The position numbers and the translations under genes are program-made. DNA of 64,000 bases, from positions 186,001-250,000 of the forward strand of contig JACYLU010000020.1 in the NCBI GenBank assembly GCA_015272325.1. Reading direction: 5' to 3'. How positions within the stretch are numbered: the first letter of the stretch is position 1; each line of letters begins with the position of its first letter. Positions 46,820 to 54,185 of the stretch are shown here, piece by piece. This DNA is from Synechococcales cyanobacterium C42_A2020_086. Lineage in GTDB: Bacteria; Cyanobacteriota; Cyanobacteriia; Elainellales; Elainellaceae. The notes under the pieces are model-generated. The model was not told the DNA's origin. It made no database searches and saw nothing but the letters and a program-made list of their open reading frames with translations.

Positions 46820-47749
46820 CTATTCTGACCCAGGCTCCCTGAGAAAAATCTCTTCAACTGTGGTCTGCTGCATCGTCTGTCGCATAATCGTCAAAAACTG
46901 ATGCACACTGGCTGAGGTGTCATTGCTGCGCCAGGCAACGGCGACTTCTGCACAGGGTGCTGGCTCCGCAAGGGGTTTGTAGATCACGCCGGTGCGCTGC
47001 ATGTTTTGCAGGGAAACAGGGACGATGGCTACCCCAATGTTGCCCGCCACAAGACTAACAATGGTTTGCATTTGCATGGCTTCCTGGACCACCTTGGGGC
47101 TGAAGCCCGCCTGCTGGCAGAGGCCGATGATTTGGTCGTAGGCCCGAGGAGAGAGTAACCGCGGGAATAAAATGAATGACTCATTCGCTAATGCTGCGAG
47201 CGCAATCTGAGATTCTGCGGCGAGGGGGTGAGTTTCCGGGAGAGCAACCACCATTGGCTCACGCACAATGATCTGTAGGTGCAGCGTTTTGTCTTCGACG
47301 GGCGGCCGCAAAAAGCCAATGTCAATCTTGCCTTCACGTAGCCACTGCAATTGCTCGTTGGTTGCCATCTCGTGAAGTTCTAGCCGCACTGCGGGGACCT
47401 GACTGCGGAATGCTCGCAGGATCAGCGGCAGCACATTGTAGGCTGCTGAGCTGACAAACCCAATTACCAACTGCCCTCGCTCACCACGGCTGATTTGTCG
47501 TCCGGTTTCAATCGCCTGCTCTAGCTGGCGCAATAGCTGGCGTGTGTCGTCTAGGAACTGCTGCCCTGCCTCCGTAAGCCGTACTGACCGCTTGGTGCGA
47601 TAGAACAACTGAAATCCAAGGTACTCTTCAAGCTGACGGATCTGCTGGCTTAGGGGCGGTTGGGCCATGTGTAGTCGCTCCGCCGCTCGGCCAAAGTGCA
47701 GTTCTTCAGCAACCGCAACAAAATAGCGCAAGTGGCGAAGTTCAATCAT
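46820..47749 (-). CDS. LysR-family transcriptional regulator
   Basis: 309 residues: an N-terminal winged helix (LRYFVAVAEELHFGRAAERLHMAQPPLSQQIRQLE, residues about 5-40) and a two-lobed periplasmic-binding-protein-like effector domain. The helix-turn-helix resembles aromatic-catabolism regulators of the BenM/CatR type, but the ligand is unknown. No divergent target gene exists: the next gene upstream runs on the same strand. A perfect 14-bp tandem duplication (47760-47787) stands directly before its start, where its own operator would be expected. Confidence 0.92.
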   Translation of the reverse strand: MIELRHLRYFVAVAEELHFGRAAERLHMAQPPLSQQIRQLEEYLGFQLFYRTKRSVRLTEAGQQFLDDTRQLLRQLEQAIETGRQISRGERGQLVIGFVSSAAYNVLPLILRAFRSQVPAVRLELHEMATNEQLQWLREGKIDIGFLRPPVEDKTLHLQIIVREPMVVALPETHPLAAESQIALAALANESFILFPRLLSPRAYDQIIGLCQQAGFSPKVVQEAMQMQTIVSLVAGNIGVAIVPVSLQNMQRTGVIYKPLAEPAPCAEVAVAWRSNDTSASVHQFLTIMRQTMQQTTVEEIFLREPGSE

Positions 47750-47791: not shown

Positions 47792-48919
47792 TTAACGAAT
47801 GCTGCCCGGTAGCGGAGCCGTCGGCGCAAAGCCACCCTGAATCGGCATAACGTTACTGAGAGGCGGAGCGGGAATCCCAGCCCCTCCTGCTCCTGGAGGA
47901 AGCATTTCTACCCCCCAGAGCGGTTGGGATGGCGAATCAGGGGGATACTGAGGCACAGCTGCTGCTGGAGCTGGAGCAACCGTCTTGGCAGCATTCCACG
48001 CTTCGGTAGCTGCTTGAGTGGCTTGAGTCGCAACAACCATGGGCACCGTCGGTTCAGCCGTGTCCACAGGTCGCACTAAGGTGGCCATATGCTGCGGGCA
48101 AAGCCGCTCGGTACCAAAGCGGATGTAGGCATCGCGATTGTGATAGTAGTTGCCCGCCACCTGCCCTTTAAACTGACGGTCGAATAGGGTGCGCACGCCC
48201 CAGTAGCCCTGCCCCGAACTTAGCCAATTGCAGATTTGCCGCCCAATCTGGATGCGATCTTGATCGCTGAGGCGCTCCCGCTCCGATGGTTGCAGAGCTT
48301 GCGAGTAATCGTAGAGCACGTCATTTTCGGGTTTCGTCCAAGAGACCGACGTGGCTACCGGGGTAGCAGAAGCTGCAGCCACGGCGACCATAGGCTGCTC
48401 GGGCGGGTGAATCACCAGCGATGCTAGCGTTGTGCCCCGCTTCGATGCCCGCAGCACCGAGGCAATTGATCGCTCCGCTGAGGTGGATTTAATGATGGGG
48501 AAAAAGGCGACCAGTGCTCGGACGGCCGGCAGCTCATCGCGGAGAGCCTCAGTGTAGGAACTCTGGGGATAGCGCTGGGCAAAGTTTTGCATTTCCTGTT
48601 GCAGCGTCAGCAGATACCCGATGCGCAGGTGCTTCATTTGCTGAGCTTGAAATACCCGCTCGGCAGCTTCTACTACTTCTAGGAGATCGTTGAACTGCTG
48701 TGCCTGCTGCTTGTGCCAGGGCAATGGGGAATGGTCTAGGAGGTTCGCCAGGGATTGCACCTGAGCTGCATCTGCTGCAGTCACCTTGGGCAGGTGCCCC
48801 GCCGTAACCGCCTCAGGCAACTGGTGGATTTTGACCCGCACCACTAATTCAAAGACGCTGTAGCTGAGTCCCACCAGCGCCGCGATCGTCACACAACCTG
48901 CTACCAACAATCTGCGCAT
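47792..48919 (-). CDS. Membrane-anchored hypothetical protein
   Basis: 375 residues. One N-terminal membrane helix (about 4-27, LLVAGCVTIAALVGLSYSVFELVV) is followed by a helical region. A compact segment (about 200-265: IQIGRQICNWLSSGQGYWGVRTLF...TERLCP) with two cysteines looks like a small disulfide-linked domain. The C-terminal 90 residues are Pro/Ala/Gly-rich and disordered. It is probably periplasmic and anchored in the inner membrane. Family not recognised. It ends 42 bases before the LysR gene on the same strand. Confidence 0.75.
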   Translation of the reverse strand: MRRLLVAGCVTIAALVGLSYSVFELVVRVKIHQLPEAVTAGHLPKVTAADAAQVQSLANLLDHSPLPWHKQQAQQFNDLLEVVEAAERVFQAQQMKHLRIGYLLTLQQEMQNFAQRYPQSSYTEALRDELPAVRALVAFFPIIKSTSAERSIASVLRASKRGTTLASLVIHPPEQPMVAVAAASATPVATSVSWTKPENDVLYDYSQALQPSERERLSDQDRIQIGRQICNWLSSGQGYWGVRTLFDRQFKGQVAGNYYHNRDAYIRFGTERLCPQHMATLVRPVDTAEPTVPMVVATQATQAATEAWNAAKTVAPAPAAAVPQYPPDSPSQPLWGVEMLPPGAGGAGIPAPPLSNVMPIQGGFAPTAPLPGSIR

Positions 48920-49380
48920 CTCAACCGTCCCTATGATTCACGACTCATTCTTGAACGTAAAGCCAAGTAATTGCCGGTAGAAGCTACCCCGTCCCACTTT
49001 CTGATCTGACTGAATTTCACCCATTCAGTGCCCGCTCGCTCTTGCGACTTTATGCGAATTTGCCTTGAAGCAGAGAAGGCAATCCCGGTTCAGCGTTGCT
49101 CGCCCTACTGTGCCAATTTTATAACCGGACAGAAGGCAACTGCAGAGGACCAAGGGCAACTTCATACAGGCTACAAACTCAAACAGCGCCTTTGAACATA
49201 ACAATTAGGTCTCTTAGGTTTCTAGCCCTTCCATGATTCGCAGTGCAGTGGGCAACAGCTTTACCGGGGCGCAGTGTGTTGCTGCCGCCCATCAATCCAC
49301 AGCATAGCAAGCCCAAGTACCAACGCCCAGCCGCTTTAAGCCTGCTGAGGGTCAGCCGAGGGAATCGGTTTCCGCCACAG
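48920..49380. other. Intergenic region with decayed coding sequence
   Basis: No intact gene. Open frames on the minus strand continue from the TetR-like remnant at its right end but show no recognisable TetR ligand domain. Confidence 0.4.
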
Positions 49381-49560
49381 CAGCGGACAACGCAGACTAA
49401 GTGGCAAGGTAGGGTTCTGCGGGAAACGCCAACCCGCTGTGCCACTTCCTGGAGTGTCAGCGCCTCGACCCCTTGGTGATGAGCTGCAGGGCTGCATCGA
49501 TTCAGATGTGCCGCAGTTCTCGAGGTGATCCGGTTTTTGGACGTTCACTTGGGAAACGAA
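49381..49560 (-). pseudogene. TetR-like regulator remnant (HTH region only)
   Basis: Reading the minus strand from about 49560: RFPSERPKTGSPRELRHI, a TGA, then IDAALQLITKG; after a one-base shift in a G-run at about 49471 it continues VEALTLQEVAQRVGVSRRTL. Restoring CGA for TGA and one G gives a basic arm plus helix-turn-helix of the TetR/AcrR pattern (G..ALTL..VA..VGVS..TL, normally followed by YRHF; here PCHL). The ligand-binding domain is not recognisable downstream. It is therefore a pseudogene with at least one nonsense codon and one frameshift. It lies divergent to the DUF3291-like gene and its paired palindromes. Confidence 0.55.
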
Positions 49561-49702
49561 GCCAACCTCAGCGGCAGAGGACATGCTCTTCCATAGAAGC
49601 ACTTCCCATAAAAGCACTTCACTGTATAGCAACAGGTTTCCCGAATCAGGACGAACAATTTAACAAAACGACCCCACGAGTGCCGCCCCTAGATTGACCC
49701 TA

Positions 49703-49762
49703 TGTTGACGATATCAACATTGTCAGCATACAATGCTTTTCTAGATGTTGACGGTGTCAACT
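49703..49762 (+). promoter_or_regulatory. Sigma-70 promoter with two palindromic operators
   Basis: TTGACG (49705-49710), an 18-base spacer and TACAAT (49729-49734) form a strong promoter for the DUF3291-like gene. The palindrome TGTTGACGATATCAACA (49703-49719) covers the -35 box. A second, TGTTGACGGTGTCAACT (49746-49762), lies just after the expected start site. Centres are 43 bp apart, about four helical turns, as for a repressor bound at two sites on one face. Confidence 0.75.
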
Positions 49763-49830
49763 TAGACTGTTTTCTCACTGCAGCCCGCCTCTGTTCCAGT
49801 TCAATCGATCCAATCTTCTGGAGGACCATT

Positions 49831-50241
49831 ATGATACTCGTTGCAGCCACTCGGCTTCGCCTTCGCTCGCCCCGCTATCTGCTGCCCTTCCTCCGCTACG
49901 CCTTCACCAGCTTCTGGCAAGCTCATCGAGCACCGGGCAATCTAGGCGTCCGCGTCCATCGTCAGCCGCAGCTTGTGTTTTGGACCCTCAGCCTCTGGCA
50001 GGATGAAGCTAGCCTGATGGCCTATCGCAACTCCGGCTCCCACCGCCGCGCCATGCCCAAACTCGTAGACTGGTGCGATGAAGCGATCACCGCCCACTGG
50101 CCGCAGGAGCACCCCACCTTTCCCACTTGGGGCGAACTCGAACAGCGATTAGCCACTAGCGGACGCCCAAGCCGCGTTCGTCATCCGTCTGCTGCTCAAG
50201 CTGCTCTGCTGAACCCAATTAAACCTCACGCTAACCAGTAG
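49831..50241 (+). CDS. DUF3291/monooxygenase-like small protein
   Basis: 136 residues. The first 90 form a dimeric alpha-beta-barrel-like domain (MILVAATRLRLRSPRYLLPFL, HRQPQLVFWTLSLWQDEASLMAYRNSGSHRRAMPKLVDWCDE) resembling DUF3291 and antibiotic-biosynthesis-monooxygenase-like proteins; the C-terminus is basic and probably flexible. The reaction is unknown. ATG 49831 is preceded by GGAGGACC; the open frame extends upstream across the promoter and is not coding there. It sits alone behind a promoter with two palindromic operators, so it is probably induced by a small molecule. Confidence 0.75.
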   Translation: MILVAATRLRLRSPRYLLPFLRYAFTSFWQAHRAPGNLGVRVHRQPQLVFWTLSLWQDEASLMAYRNSGSHRRAMPKLVDWCDEAITAHWPQEHPTFPTWGELEQRLATSGRPSRVRHPSAAQAALLNPIKPHANQ

Positions 50242-50260
50242 GATTGCGCTGCCCCGCCAG

Positions 50261-50301
50261 AATTTTCTAGGTCAAAATTTTCTAGGTCAGAATTTTCTAG
50301 G
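50261..50301. repeat. 15-bp direct repeat, three copies
   Basis: AATTTTCTAGG recurs at 50261, 50276 and 50291, with linkers GTCA(A/G) making a 15-bp period. The array ends 33 bases before the HCF173-like gene start. Confidence 0.9.
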
Positions 50302-50334
50302 ATGGAGAGGCAGGGTTGAGAGGCATCGCCGATT

Positions 50335-51852
50335 ATGACTTCGCAAAACTCGTCGCAGTGGGATTTGGGTCGCTTCGTCAAAACACTGTCCTACTTTGGA
50401 GCCGTACCGTTGCTCAGCCGCTTTGACTGGTTTCAGCAGTGGTTCGGCAGCCGCCCCGATCCCACCGTAGACAGCTCCAGTTTGCTGACCAGCTCGGCTC
50501 CTACCGTTGAGGCAGTGAACTCGGAGGCAGCTGGTGTCATCCTCGTCGTCGGGGCAACTGGCGGCGTCGGCAAGCGGGTTGTGCAGCGGCTCATGCAGCG
50601 GGGCGTAGCAGTGCGGGCGCTCGTGCGAGATGCCGATCGTGCTCGGGCCATGCTGGGCGAATCGGTGCCGCTGATCGAAGCCGACATCACGATTCCCGAA
50701 ACCCTTACTCCTGCTGTCATGGAAAACGTCAGCGCTGTGATCTGCTGTAGCGGTACGCGGGTGCAGCCGGTTGAAGGCGACACACCGAATCGCGAAAAAT
50801 ACTATCAGGGCATCAAGTTCTACCTACCGGAAGTTGTGGATACGCCGGAAGTCGTCGAGTACCAAGGGCTGCAAAACCTAGTGCAGGCGGCTGGCGAGCT
50901 AGGACTCACCCATCGAGCCATTTTTGACTTCACTCAACCTAGCGATTCGTTTAAAGAAATCTGGGGTGCGCTCGATGATGTGGTCATGGGCGGGGTCAGT
51001 GAGAGCAGCCTACGTTTAGCCGATGGCGTCGCCTATTTTTCAGGTGTGGTGTCCACAGCCAATTCCGGCGGCTTTGCCTCGGTGCGAACACGCAACCTAG
51101 AGCCTGCCCTCGATTTGTCTCAGTATGACGGCGTCGAACTGCGGGTCAAAGGCGACGGCAAGCGCTACAAGTTCATGCTGCGCAGCGAAACCCGTTGGGA
51201 TGGGGTTGCCTACTGCGCTTCCTTTGACACCGTGCCTGATCGTTGGGTCACCGTCCGGCTTCCCTTTGCCAGCCTAATTCCAGTGTTTCGCGCTAAGACG
51301 GTGAACGTTGGTCCTGTAGACACCCGCCATGTCTCCGCCTTTCAGCTCATGCTCAGCAAGTTCGAGTACGACGGAGCCTTGAATCCCCACTTTGAACCCG
51401 GCTTCTTTCAGCTTCAGATCGAGTCGATTCGGGTGTACCGCCAGTCCGAAGTCCCCAAATTTGTGCTGGTAAGTTCCGCTGGTGTCACGCGCCCCGGCAA
51501 ACCCGGACTCAATCTAGACGAAGAACCACCTGCCGTCCGCCTGAACGATCAGCTTGGCGGCATCCTCACTTGGAAGCTAAAGGGCGAAGACATGGTGCGG
51601 CAAAGCGGCATTCCCTACACAATCCTCCGCCCCTGCGCCCTCACCGAAGAGCCGGGCGGTCAGCCGTTACGCTTCGAGCAAGGCGATACCCTCACGGGCA
51701 AAGTGAGCCGCGAAGATATTGCCGAACTCTGCATTCAGGCCCTGGCGCTCCCCCAAGCTCGCAATGTCACCGTGGAAATCGCAGAAGGTGAGGGGGGTTG
51801 TGCGGTAGGAGATTGGGAATGTTTATTTGGACAGGTGAAGGCGGATCGGTAA
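50335..51852 (+). CDS. HCF173-like NAD(P)-binding protein with CIA30 domain
   Basis: 505 residues. An atypical short-chain-dehydrogenase Rossmann fold starts at about residue 64 (ILVVGATGGVGKRVVQRLMQRG), is interrupted by a CIA30 domain (about 190-365, including FTQPSDSFKEIWGALDDVVMGGVSESS), and resumes with KFVLVSSAGVTRPGKPGL. This SDR-with-inserted-CIA30 order is that of plant HCF173, which is needed for psbA mRNA translation. A role in photosystem II assembly or thylakoid biogenesis is a reasonable inference for the cyanobacterial protein, but not shown. Its stop lies 5 bases from the convergent carotenoid oxygenase stop. Confidence 0.85.
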   Translation: MTSQNSSQWDLGRFVKTLSYFGAVPLLSRFDWFQQWFGSRPDPTVDSSSLLTSSAPTVEAVNSEAAGVILVVGATGGVGKRVVQRLMQRGVAVRALVRDADRARAMLGESVPLIEADITIPETLTPAVMENVSAVICCSGTRVQPVEGDTPNREKYYQGIKFYLPEVVDTPEVVEYQGLQNLVQAAGELGLTHRAIFDFTQPSDSFKEIWGALDDVVMGGVSESSLRLADGVAYFSGVVSTANSGGFASVRTRNLEPALDLSQYDGVELRVKGDGKRYKFMLRSETRWDGVAYCASFDTVPDRWVTVRLPFASLIPVFRAKTVNVGPVDTRHVSAFQLMLSKFEYDGALNPHFEPGFFQLQIESIRVYRQSEVPKFVLVSSAGVTRPGKPGLNLDEEPPAVRLNDQLGGILTWKLKGEDMVRQSGIPYTILRPCALTEEPGGQPLRFEQGDTLTGKVSREDIAELCIQALALPQARNVTVEIAEGEGGCAVGDWECLFGQVKADR

Positions 51853-51857
51853 CGTAT

Positions 51858-54185
51858 TTACTCCAGACTGACTGAGGCTGAGTACTCACTCCCTTCTGGT
51901 TTCGCTGGCAGCACCTGGGATGGCATCTGAGATTGCAGCCTTGTTTTGAGAGATTCCTCCAACGTCTGCTCAACGAAATGGGGGTAAATCCATTCGTCAA
52001 ATAATTCTCTGACGGTTTTCTGCCGACCCAGCGTAGCCGCCAAGTTGTTCAATCCACGAATTAAGCGTCGGAATTGCCGCGGTAGAGAACGGTTGCCCGC
52101 TAGATAAACGGCTTCGTCATAATCCTCGTGAACAGTTTTCTCTCGTTTCTGGCGACGCTCTGCTGCCGAATAGCGATATTGCTCAAAGTCCGCTTCGGAC
52201 AGCCAAGTGGAATGCAGCGTTAATCCTAGATTTAATTTTTCTGCATGGCGGAGCCGACAAACGGGACCCGCTTTCAGATCGCCCGCTTTGAAGATCCAGA
52301 ACTCATCGTTAGCGCGATCCGCTTGCTCGGGATCGTCCGCCAGCACCACACAGCTGATGTAGCCAGCCAATTCAGAAGCGTCGGTTTTGCTGGGAATGTA
52401 TTGCGGAGAGAAGGCAGCATAGCCCTGGGGAAAAGCATAGGCATCGGCAATGGTCATTTGCTCAGTATCTAGACGCAGCAGTGTGGGTGGCAGATCTTCA
52501 GAGGGTAAATTGGCTACGGGAATCTCTCGGTATTCGCGCTCTTTGTAGGCATCGTAAATGCGTTGGGGAATCAACTCCCAGGAGAAACCCCAAGACATCC
52601 AGTAAATATGGTTGACCTGGGCAGACGAGGGGTCAGCATCGCTGGGTGCAACCTGCAAATCGCGATGGGTATACACCGAAGGCAGCCAGGAATTCGCTTT
52701 AGACTGGTCTGAACCGGGTTCGCTGATGCCCTTAGATGACAGCAAAGCCCCCGTTTTAGCATCGAATTCATAGCGGTAAAACGAGCCGAGATCCGTTGTG
52801 CCTACCATTAGACCTTGCAGGTCATGGCGCAGGTAATGTCTGCTCTTAGCATTCTTTACCGGCAAGTCGTAGCGATTGATCCATTCAGTGGGATCTAAGC
52901 CATTGTGGTGCCCTACATGGAAAACCAGTTTATTGTCGGCATTGCTGTAATCCACGGCAAAGTGCGACACCGTGCGGGGCAGACTCAGGCGGGTTGCTGT
53001 GACAAACTGGGGCGGTTCGTCGGCTTGACCGCCAGCAGTGAGATCGGCGCGGCGCACCACATAAAAATCGGTGAACGCTGTAGACTTGAACAACTGCAGA
53101 AAAATAGAGTAGAGCTTGGCCCCTAGCGGTTGAGAGAACCATTGGCTGGTAAACCAGTCGGTCGATAGCCAGCCCAAATAAAAAGGGGAAAAGATTTGCG
53201 AATATTCCAAACCAAATTGCAGATCACCCAGAATCACATAATCCTCGGTTAGCCCCATTTGGTGAACCGATTGCTGAATCACCACGGGTGGATGGTTGCT
53301 CAGGTCAACCGGCTGATCGGCCACAGCTGAGCGGGTGGAATTGTCTTTGGGAAGCACTAAGCGCCAGCGTTCTGTAGACCCATCGGACTGCCAGCGAATC
53401 AAATCGGTAAAGCTTCCCCAGCGTTCGTTGCCGCTCAGTCGCTGCTGCCGATTTCGACCAAAAGTAACTTTGCCCGTTTGCTTGAGCTGATTGATGCGTT
53501 TGAATAGAGCATTTAAGACGCGATTGACCGGCGTGCGGAATCTGCCGCTGTATCCCGAAGAATAGTTCACAATGAACGTATCTCGAGAAGCACTGGTTCC
53601 CTTTTCATTAGAAGTCGGGGGATCGGCAACTGGATGAGCTGAGCCACTATAGATTTGAAAGATTTTAGGAACAGGCAGCAAACCAAAGAAAATCATGATC
53701 CAGTCTTTTGTTTTGCCAACGGGTTCCACGACCTCCATGGCTTCCGGATCAAACGTATAGGGACGCCCAGCATCATACGTGATTAAAAGACGGTTGGCAG
53801 TTTTTTGAAAGGCGGTATTGAGCTGATTGCGCGAGCCTAATTGCAGCGTCAACCGAGGTACTCCACCATCTCGAAAGGCGTAGCGCTTGAATGGCTTGCC
53901 ATATTGTGCAACCAGATCGGCGTAGTAGCAGGGAGTCTTTGCCATCCGTGTCTTGAGCATCACCTTACCCGCTGCAAAGCTCAGCCGGTAGACCATGCCA
54001 TCGCCATTGGCAAAGGCCCGTTCTCCAGCTATCGCCTTCTCACCAGGAGGCAAGGGAGCAACCACAAATACATGCCCGCTCAAGTCATCCAGCGAAACCC
54101 CGGGCTTGAGATCGTAAGCCTCTAGCGGCCATTCATCCTCTCGACGCGATGCTTGAGTCACAGACAGGGGAACAAACGATTTCAT
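51858..54185 (-). CDS. Carotenoid oxygenase family protein, long form
   Basis: 775 residues, well above the 480-500 of typical cyanobacterial carotenoid cleavage oxygenases. The N-terminus (GHVFVVAPLPPGE..., FANGDGMVYRLSF) matches the family's first blade. Iron-ligand histidine candidates lie in VSHFAVDYSN, VFHVGHHNGLD and LTLHSTWLSE, and a FSPQYIPSK segment lies before the last. The chain ends with about 90 extra residues that are helical and charged. It would cleave or isomerise an apocarotenoid or related polyene; regiospecificity is unknown. It begins 58 bases after the STAND/WD40 gene on the same strand. Confidence 0.87.
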   Translation of the reverse strand: MKSFVPLSVTQASRREDEWPLEAYDLKPGVSLDDLSGHVFVVAPLPPGEKAIAGERAFANGDGMVYRLSFAAGKVMLKTRMAKTPCYYADLVAQYGKPFKRYAFRDGGVPRLTLQLGSRNQLNTAFQKTANRLLITYDAGRPYTFDPEAMEVVEPVGKTKDWIMIFFGLLPVPKIFQIYSGSAHPVADPPTSNEKGTSASRDTFIVNYSSGYSGRFRTPVNRVLNALFKRINQLKQTGKVTFGRNRQQRLSGNERWGSFTDLIRWQSDGSTERWRLVLPKDNSTRSAVADQPVDLSNHPPVVIQQSVHQMGLTEDYVILGDLQFGLEYSQIFSPFYLGWLSTDWFTSQWFSQPLGAKLYSIFLQLFKSTAFTDFYVVRRADLTAGGQADEPPQFVTATRLSLPRTVSHFAVDYSNADNKLVFHVGHHNGLDPTEWINRYDLPVKNAKSRHYLRHDLQGLMVGTTDLGSFYRYEFDAKTGALLSSKGISEPGSDQSKANSWLPSVYTHRDLQVAPSDADPSSAQVNHIYWMSWGFSWELIPQRIYDAYKEREYREIPVANLPSEDLPPTLLRLDTEQMTIADAYAFPQGYAAFSPQYIPSKTDASELAGYISCVVLADDPEQADRANDEFWIFKAGDLKAGPVCRLRHAEKLNLGLTLHSTWLSEADFEQYRYSAAERRQKREKTVHEDYDEAVYLAGNRSLPRQFRRLIRGLNNLAATLGRQKTVRELFDEWIYPHFVEQTLEESLKTRLQSQMPSQVLPAKPEGSEYSASVSLE

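Follow-up and report, generated by a model that had tools for sequence, protein, structure and literature searches.

A double-operator TetR promoter that may have outlived its own repressor gene in a cyanobacterium

A DUF3291 gene, its promoter and a broken neighbour

The window analysed here is a 64,000-nucleotide stretch (C6:186001–250000) of the draft genome of Synechococcales cyanobacterium C42_A2020_086, an assembly of 5.93 Mb in 38 contigs. It contains an intact gene of the DUF3291 family, a promoter framed by two palindromes and, on the opposite strand, the remains of a regulator gene. The features, in order along the window, are these:

49273–49356, minus strand: C-terminal piece of the remnant, GWALVLGLAMLWIDG, set against AWSLVHGLAMLLiDg in the class, after about 85 lost codons
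49370–49420, minus strand: continuation of the remnant past a second frameshift, with TAG at 49399–49397, matching APY..F..DK.ALLAAVAE in the class
49422–49519, minus strand: decayed TetR helix-turn-helix from the profile alignment, reading ELRHI*IDAALQLI, frameshift, VEALTLQEVAQRVGVS
49702–49720, no strand assigned: predicted operator 1 (promoter-distal), ATGTTGACGATATCAACAT, one mismatch to the class consensus, with the −35 hexamer inside it
49705–49710, plus strand: −35 hexamer TTGACG, inside operator 1, placed as in other operator pairs
49729–49734, plus strand: −10 hexamer TACAAT, between the operators, 18 bp 3′ of the −35 hexamer
49745–49763, no strand assigned: predicted operator 2 (promoter-proximal), ATGTTGACGGTGTCAACTT, one mismatch to the class consensus
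49820–49824, plus strand: GGAGG, which, judging from the sequence, probably serves the DUF3291 gene as ribosome-binding site
49831–50241, plus strand: intact DUF3291/ABM-like gene (P0001, 136 residues; Pfam), presumed to encode a monooxygenase-like protein

The product P0001 passes the Pfam gathering scores of both PF11695 (DUF3291; E 4e-6, 26.9 bits, cut-off 23.5) and PF03992 (ABM; E 3e-6, 27.9 bits, cut-off 23.1), which upholds the DUF3291-like gene that an earlier note had read at 49831–50241. Its superfamily suggests a monooxygenase-like activity, and one may reasonably guess that it oxidises a lipid or a compound derived from carotenoids. No Rfam family was detected within 48900–50400. 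Further along, a plus-strand gene at 50335–51852 carries a CIA30 domain flanked on either side by NAD(P)-binding matches, and a minus-strand gene at 51858–54185, two genes from the DUF3291 gene, gives a weaker match to RPE65.

The operators are 19-bp palindromes, 43 bp apart, framing the sigma-70-like promoter TTGACG-N18-TACAAT; this was the arrangement proposed in the earlier note, and it is indeed present, with the palindromes at 49702–49720 and 49745–49763. Operator 2 sits immediately 3′ of the inferred transcription start. A joint pattern derived from the two window sites themselves has no third match in the window, its four strand-wise hits standing against 0.12 expected, and none of 100 shuffles gave four hits.

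The divergent gene had been described as retaining a TetR-like helix-turn-helix broken by a TGA and a frameshift. Both lesions are there (TGA at 49504–49502, frameshift near 49477), and the damage goes beyond that description: the helix-turn-helix is spread over three frames, a second frameshift lies near 49421, further stops occur at 49399–49397 (TAG) and 49338–49336, about 85 codons are absent between 49370 and 49356, and the C-terminal piece falls outside the interval 49381–49830 of the earlier note. The TetR assignment is supported. Read through its lesions, the remnant passes Pfam TetR_N (26.8 bits, cut-off 24), and when a profile built from 28 related TetRs was aligned with frameshifts allowed, 49519–49370 scored 75.4, whereas nothing elsewhere among the 298 segments of the window exceeded 41.2. 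The segment at 49370–49420 reads APY..ALSAAVAE. The C-terminal piece, in which only the last part of TetR_C_33 remains, scored 44.9, the top of 686 segments, with 28.6 the best elsewhere. Against single proteins, the remnant region scored 120 with the TetR of a genome from another family (G380) and 105 with the one surviving class TetR of its own genome (C33, named for its contig), while the four other TetRs of the own genome gave scores of 45–66. These profile and single-protein scores, together with the multiple lesions, lead us to read the remnant as a decayed TetR of the YHHGDLR/TetR_C_33 class rather than as a sequencing error. The C33 TetR (L053) was considered as its closest relative and rejected in that role, as it shares fourth to fifth place among 28; many class members are no farther from the remnant, so a recent duplication is unsupported.

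A TetR class and its paired operators

The class comprises regulators with TetR_N and TetR_C_33 domains and a YHHGDLR N-terminus. Relatives of the C33 TetR at E ≤ 1e-20 were found in 37 of 388 genomes of the taxonomic class, the own genome counted; no genome of the same genus was among the 60 searched as relatives. Of 30 class TetR loci, 18 have a GTTGAC-N3-GTCAAC-like site in the 300 bp upstream when one mismatch is allowed over the 12 core positions, and 22 have one when two are allowed. The eight loci lacking such a site at up to two mismatches in that interval are L056, L064, L071, L075, L076, L078, L081 and L082; at L056 an operator pair lies about 600 bp upstream, the flank of L071 is cut, and L075 and L078 possess weaker pairs. 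The 48 sites collected, one of which is the C33 site, yielded the class consensus ATGTTKACRSYGTCAACAT, flanks included.

Pairing follows a plan. The distinct pairs number 27, of which 18 adjoin a TetR gene, eight are unlinked and one is the window pair. Their spacing is 33 bp in 17 and 34 bp in three; the 43 bp of the window is among the longer ones, three other pairs having 45 and 46 bp. A −10 element of the form T-A-...-T lies 16–19 bp 3′ of the TTKACR of the distal operator in 24 of the 27 pairs, against a null of 0.14, the exceptions being L059, L061 and L144. The window pair satisfies this plan, with two ATGTTKACRSYGTCAACAT-like palindromes, the −35 hexamer in the distal one and the −10 hexamer in the gap.

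Operator pairs also occur away from the regulator genes. At least eight unlinked pairs were found in at least six of 23 TetR-positive genomes; among the matches listed, four front a 2TM gene and four an FAD-oxidoreductase-like gene, the Pfam results covering three of the four 2TM genes and, for the oxidoreductase, its L145 relative. The unlinked pair of G013 is on the same contig as its TetR, about 14 kb off. In 23 TetR-negative genomes there were no operator pairs, and the 29 single sites seen there each had two mismatches. Because unlinked pairs are found in TetR-positive genomes and none in the TetR-negative ones, control in trans looks like a normal habit of the class, judging from the genomes compared. 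Elsewhere, class operators front small monooxygenase-like genes (Monooxy_af470-like at L074 and L066, ydhR at L078) as well as the FAD-oxidoreductase-like genes identified by Pfam.

An intact counterpart of the window locus exists in G380 (locus L012), where a class TetR with TetR_N and TetR_C_33 is divergent from a DUF3291 gene and the paired sites GTTGACAGTATTAAC and GTTGACATCATAAAC, 33 bp apart, lie between the two. When 24 other DUF3291 loci were checked, L012 alone had a pair in which neither site exceeded two mismatches; at that threshold, L009 and L015 each show a single operator-like site. A short frame at L012 1380–1456 (MSRRYTNEDIRQILQQAELL...), between the G380 operators and the DUF3291 gene, resembles by eye the start of the 2TM genes fronted by other class operators, and may be what is left of one, its promoter having passed to the DUF3291 gene. 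The regulator of DUF3291 genes varies within the group, since a PadR gene adjoins them at L002, L005, L009, L015 and L020. TATGCAA-type palindromes were seen 5′ of the DUF3291 genes in L002, L005, L009 and L015, and a carotenoid oxygenase (RPE65, PF03055) gene is the neighbour of DUF3291 in L005 and in L009, and of a fragment of DUF3291 in L023. In the DUF3291 tree, the sequence from the window falls in an unresolved fork, and the operator link with G380 may or may not be shared by descent.

The surviving paralogue and the proposed reading of the sites

The earlier note had called for a genome search for a TetR paralogue and for further TGTTGAC-N3-GTCAACA sites. Five intact TetR_N genes in the own genome score over the cut-off, and one of them belongs to the class: the C33 TetR, a single open frame of 231 residues that exceeds the Pfam cut-offs for TetR_N (E 1.8e-13) and TetR_C_33 (E 1.5e-17), is the sole match in its genome at E ≤ 1e-20, has a matching site in front and is adjoined by an aldo/keto reductase gene. 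The exact motif has no match across the genome, and the sites were located by a looser search and then by the class consensus; with up to two mismatches, a consensus scan of the 5.93 Mb returned only operator 1, operator 2 and C33:82900–82918. This third site lies directly upstream of the C33 TetR gene, has two mismatches to the consensus, and its partner, 45 bp off, is a half-site only. By composition, 0.04 places are expected by chance in the genome at up to one mismatch and 1.0 at up to two. The window pair is therefore far above chance, and the C33 site draws its weight from its position, since about one site with two mismatches per genome is expected by chance. The two 2TM genes (PF13239) of the own genome stand beside no consensus site at up to three mismatches.

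The C33 TetR lies in a stretch of lower GC (0.474). The contig end that holds it (C33:79500–102000; L043, L153) has a GC content of 0.47, as against 0.54–0.56 elsewhere on the contig, and is perhaps an island. Foreign origin of the whole contig was considered and set aside: in tetranucleotide use three of four sampled segments match the genome (r 0.94–0.95) and most of the contig looks native, the segment at the end beyond the TetR being the one that mismatches (r 0.75).

From these sequence comparisons, the window probably holds a double-operator TetR promoter that has lost its own repressor and is now read in trans by the C33 paralogue. The C33 repressor would bind both window operators, covering the −35 hexamer at operator 1 and the start region at operator 2, and the DUF3291 gene would be shut off until a ligand, perhaps an oxidised lipid or an (apo)carotenoid, releases the repressor. 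The local TetR would have become redundant and then decayed, and selection acting via the C33 paralogue would have preserved the operators.

The earlier note had left open whether the DUF3291 gene is now constitutive or held by a paralogous repressor. The second half of that proposal fits better, since the genome has one intact class paralogue with a matching site in front and its three best operator matches are the two window sites and that one, and the occurrence of unlinked pairs in TetR-positive but not TetR-negative genomes also favours control in trans. The first half survives as the main rival, a possible but rather unlikely one: the repressor is dead with nothing in its place, the gene is expressed constitutively, and the palindromes persist only because decay set in recently and operator 1 partly coincides with the −35 box. 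Operator 1 does include TTGACG, the strong promoter match persists, and each operator is already one base off the consensus. However, the promoter needs neither operator 2 nor the right half of operator 1, which we infer have no promoter role protecting them, yet the operators together keep 34 of 36 specified bases. The gene, in contrast, has stops, frameshifts and a deletion, and keeps 14 of 26 residues common to at least 85% of the intact members (which themselves keep a mean of 95%, and at lowest 77%, of the near-invariant residues); moreover, a paralogue with a matching site is present. The difference in retention (Fisher p 3.5e-4) is no more than suggestive of operators outlasting the repressor gene, because residues are being compared with bases and the −35 box takes up part of operator 1.

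It is improbable that the palindromes are read by a protein other than the dead TetR and the C33 paralogue. There are four further intact TetR_N genes in the genome and a LysR gene 2 kb away, but in each site 18 of the 19 positions, with the flanks counted, agree with the consensus of the YHHGDLR class; no such palindrome was found near the other four TetR genes (in fetched stretches, with half-sites read by eye); and another gene separates the LysR gene from the operators. The LysR (46820–47749, minus strand) is close to AlsR, at 362.5 bits, below the cut-off of 430. It is very hard to credit that errors of sequencing or assembly have made a working TetR gene look broken: the assembly is a draft in 38 contigs and offers one version of the locus, but at least five separate lesions and some 85 lost codons exceed what sequencing error would produce.

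Relation to known switches and significance

Among TetR/AcrR regulators with TetR_C_33 (PF13305), the C33 paralogue and the G380 regulator share TetR_N and TetR_C_33, and the divergent arrangement with palindromes over the promoter is that of the window; the window differs in that its regulator gene is dead and any control would come from an unlinked paralogue. In tetR/tetA of Tn10, two palindromes in the divergent intergenic region overlap promoter elements. The window resembles it in having two palindromes that overlap the promoter in a divergent intergenic region; the operator sequence and the target are different, as is the spacing, which is 43 bp in the window and 33 bp in most pairs of the class, and the window promoter is sandwiched, with the distal operator supplying the −35 hexamer. 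Cyanobacterial DUF3291 genes with a divergent or adjacent PadR gene share the target family, whereas the window has a TetR-type regulator and a different operator. The parts of the literature that we searched gave no account of a DUF3291–TetR switch or of the operator and promoter plan of the class.

Taken together, a broader model may be proposed, one that in our judgement has an even chance of being right: an undescribed cyanobacterial regulon with movable ‘sandwich’ promoters, rewired in this genome to an unlinked paralogue. TetR_C_33 repressors would act on an operator(−35)/−10/operator unit placed before FAD-oxidoreductase-like, 2TM and monooxygenase-like genes. If this is true, two local switches would have become one two-target regulon after the death of the local repressor. 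The locus offers a clean natural case for the fate of operators once a repressor gene dies, with the plain prediction of one surviving paralogue and three operator-like places in the genome. It also shows how operators and promoter are laid out in one cyanobacterial TetR class, a switch type to which a number of small monooxygenase-like genes are thereby linked.
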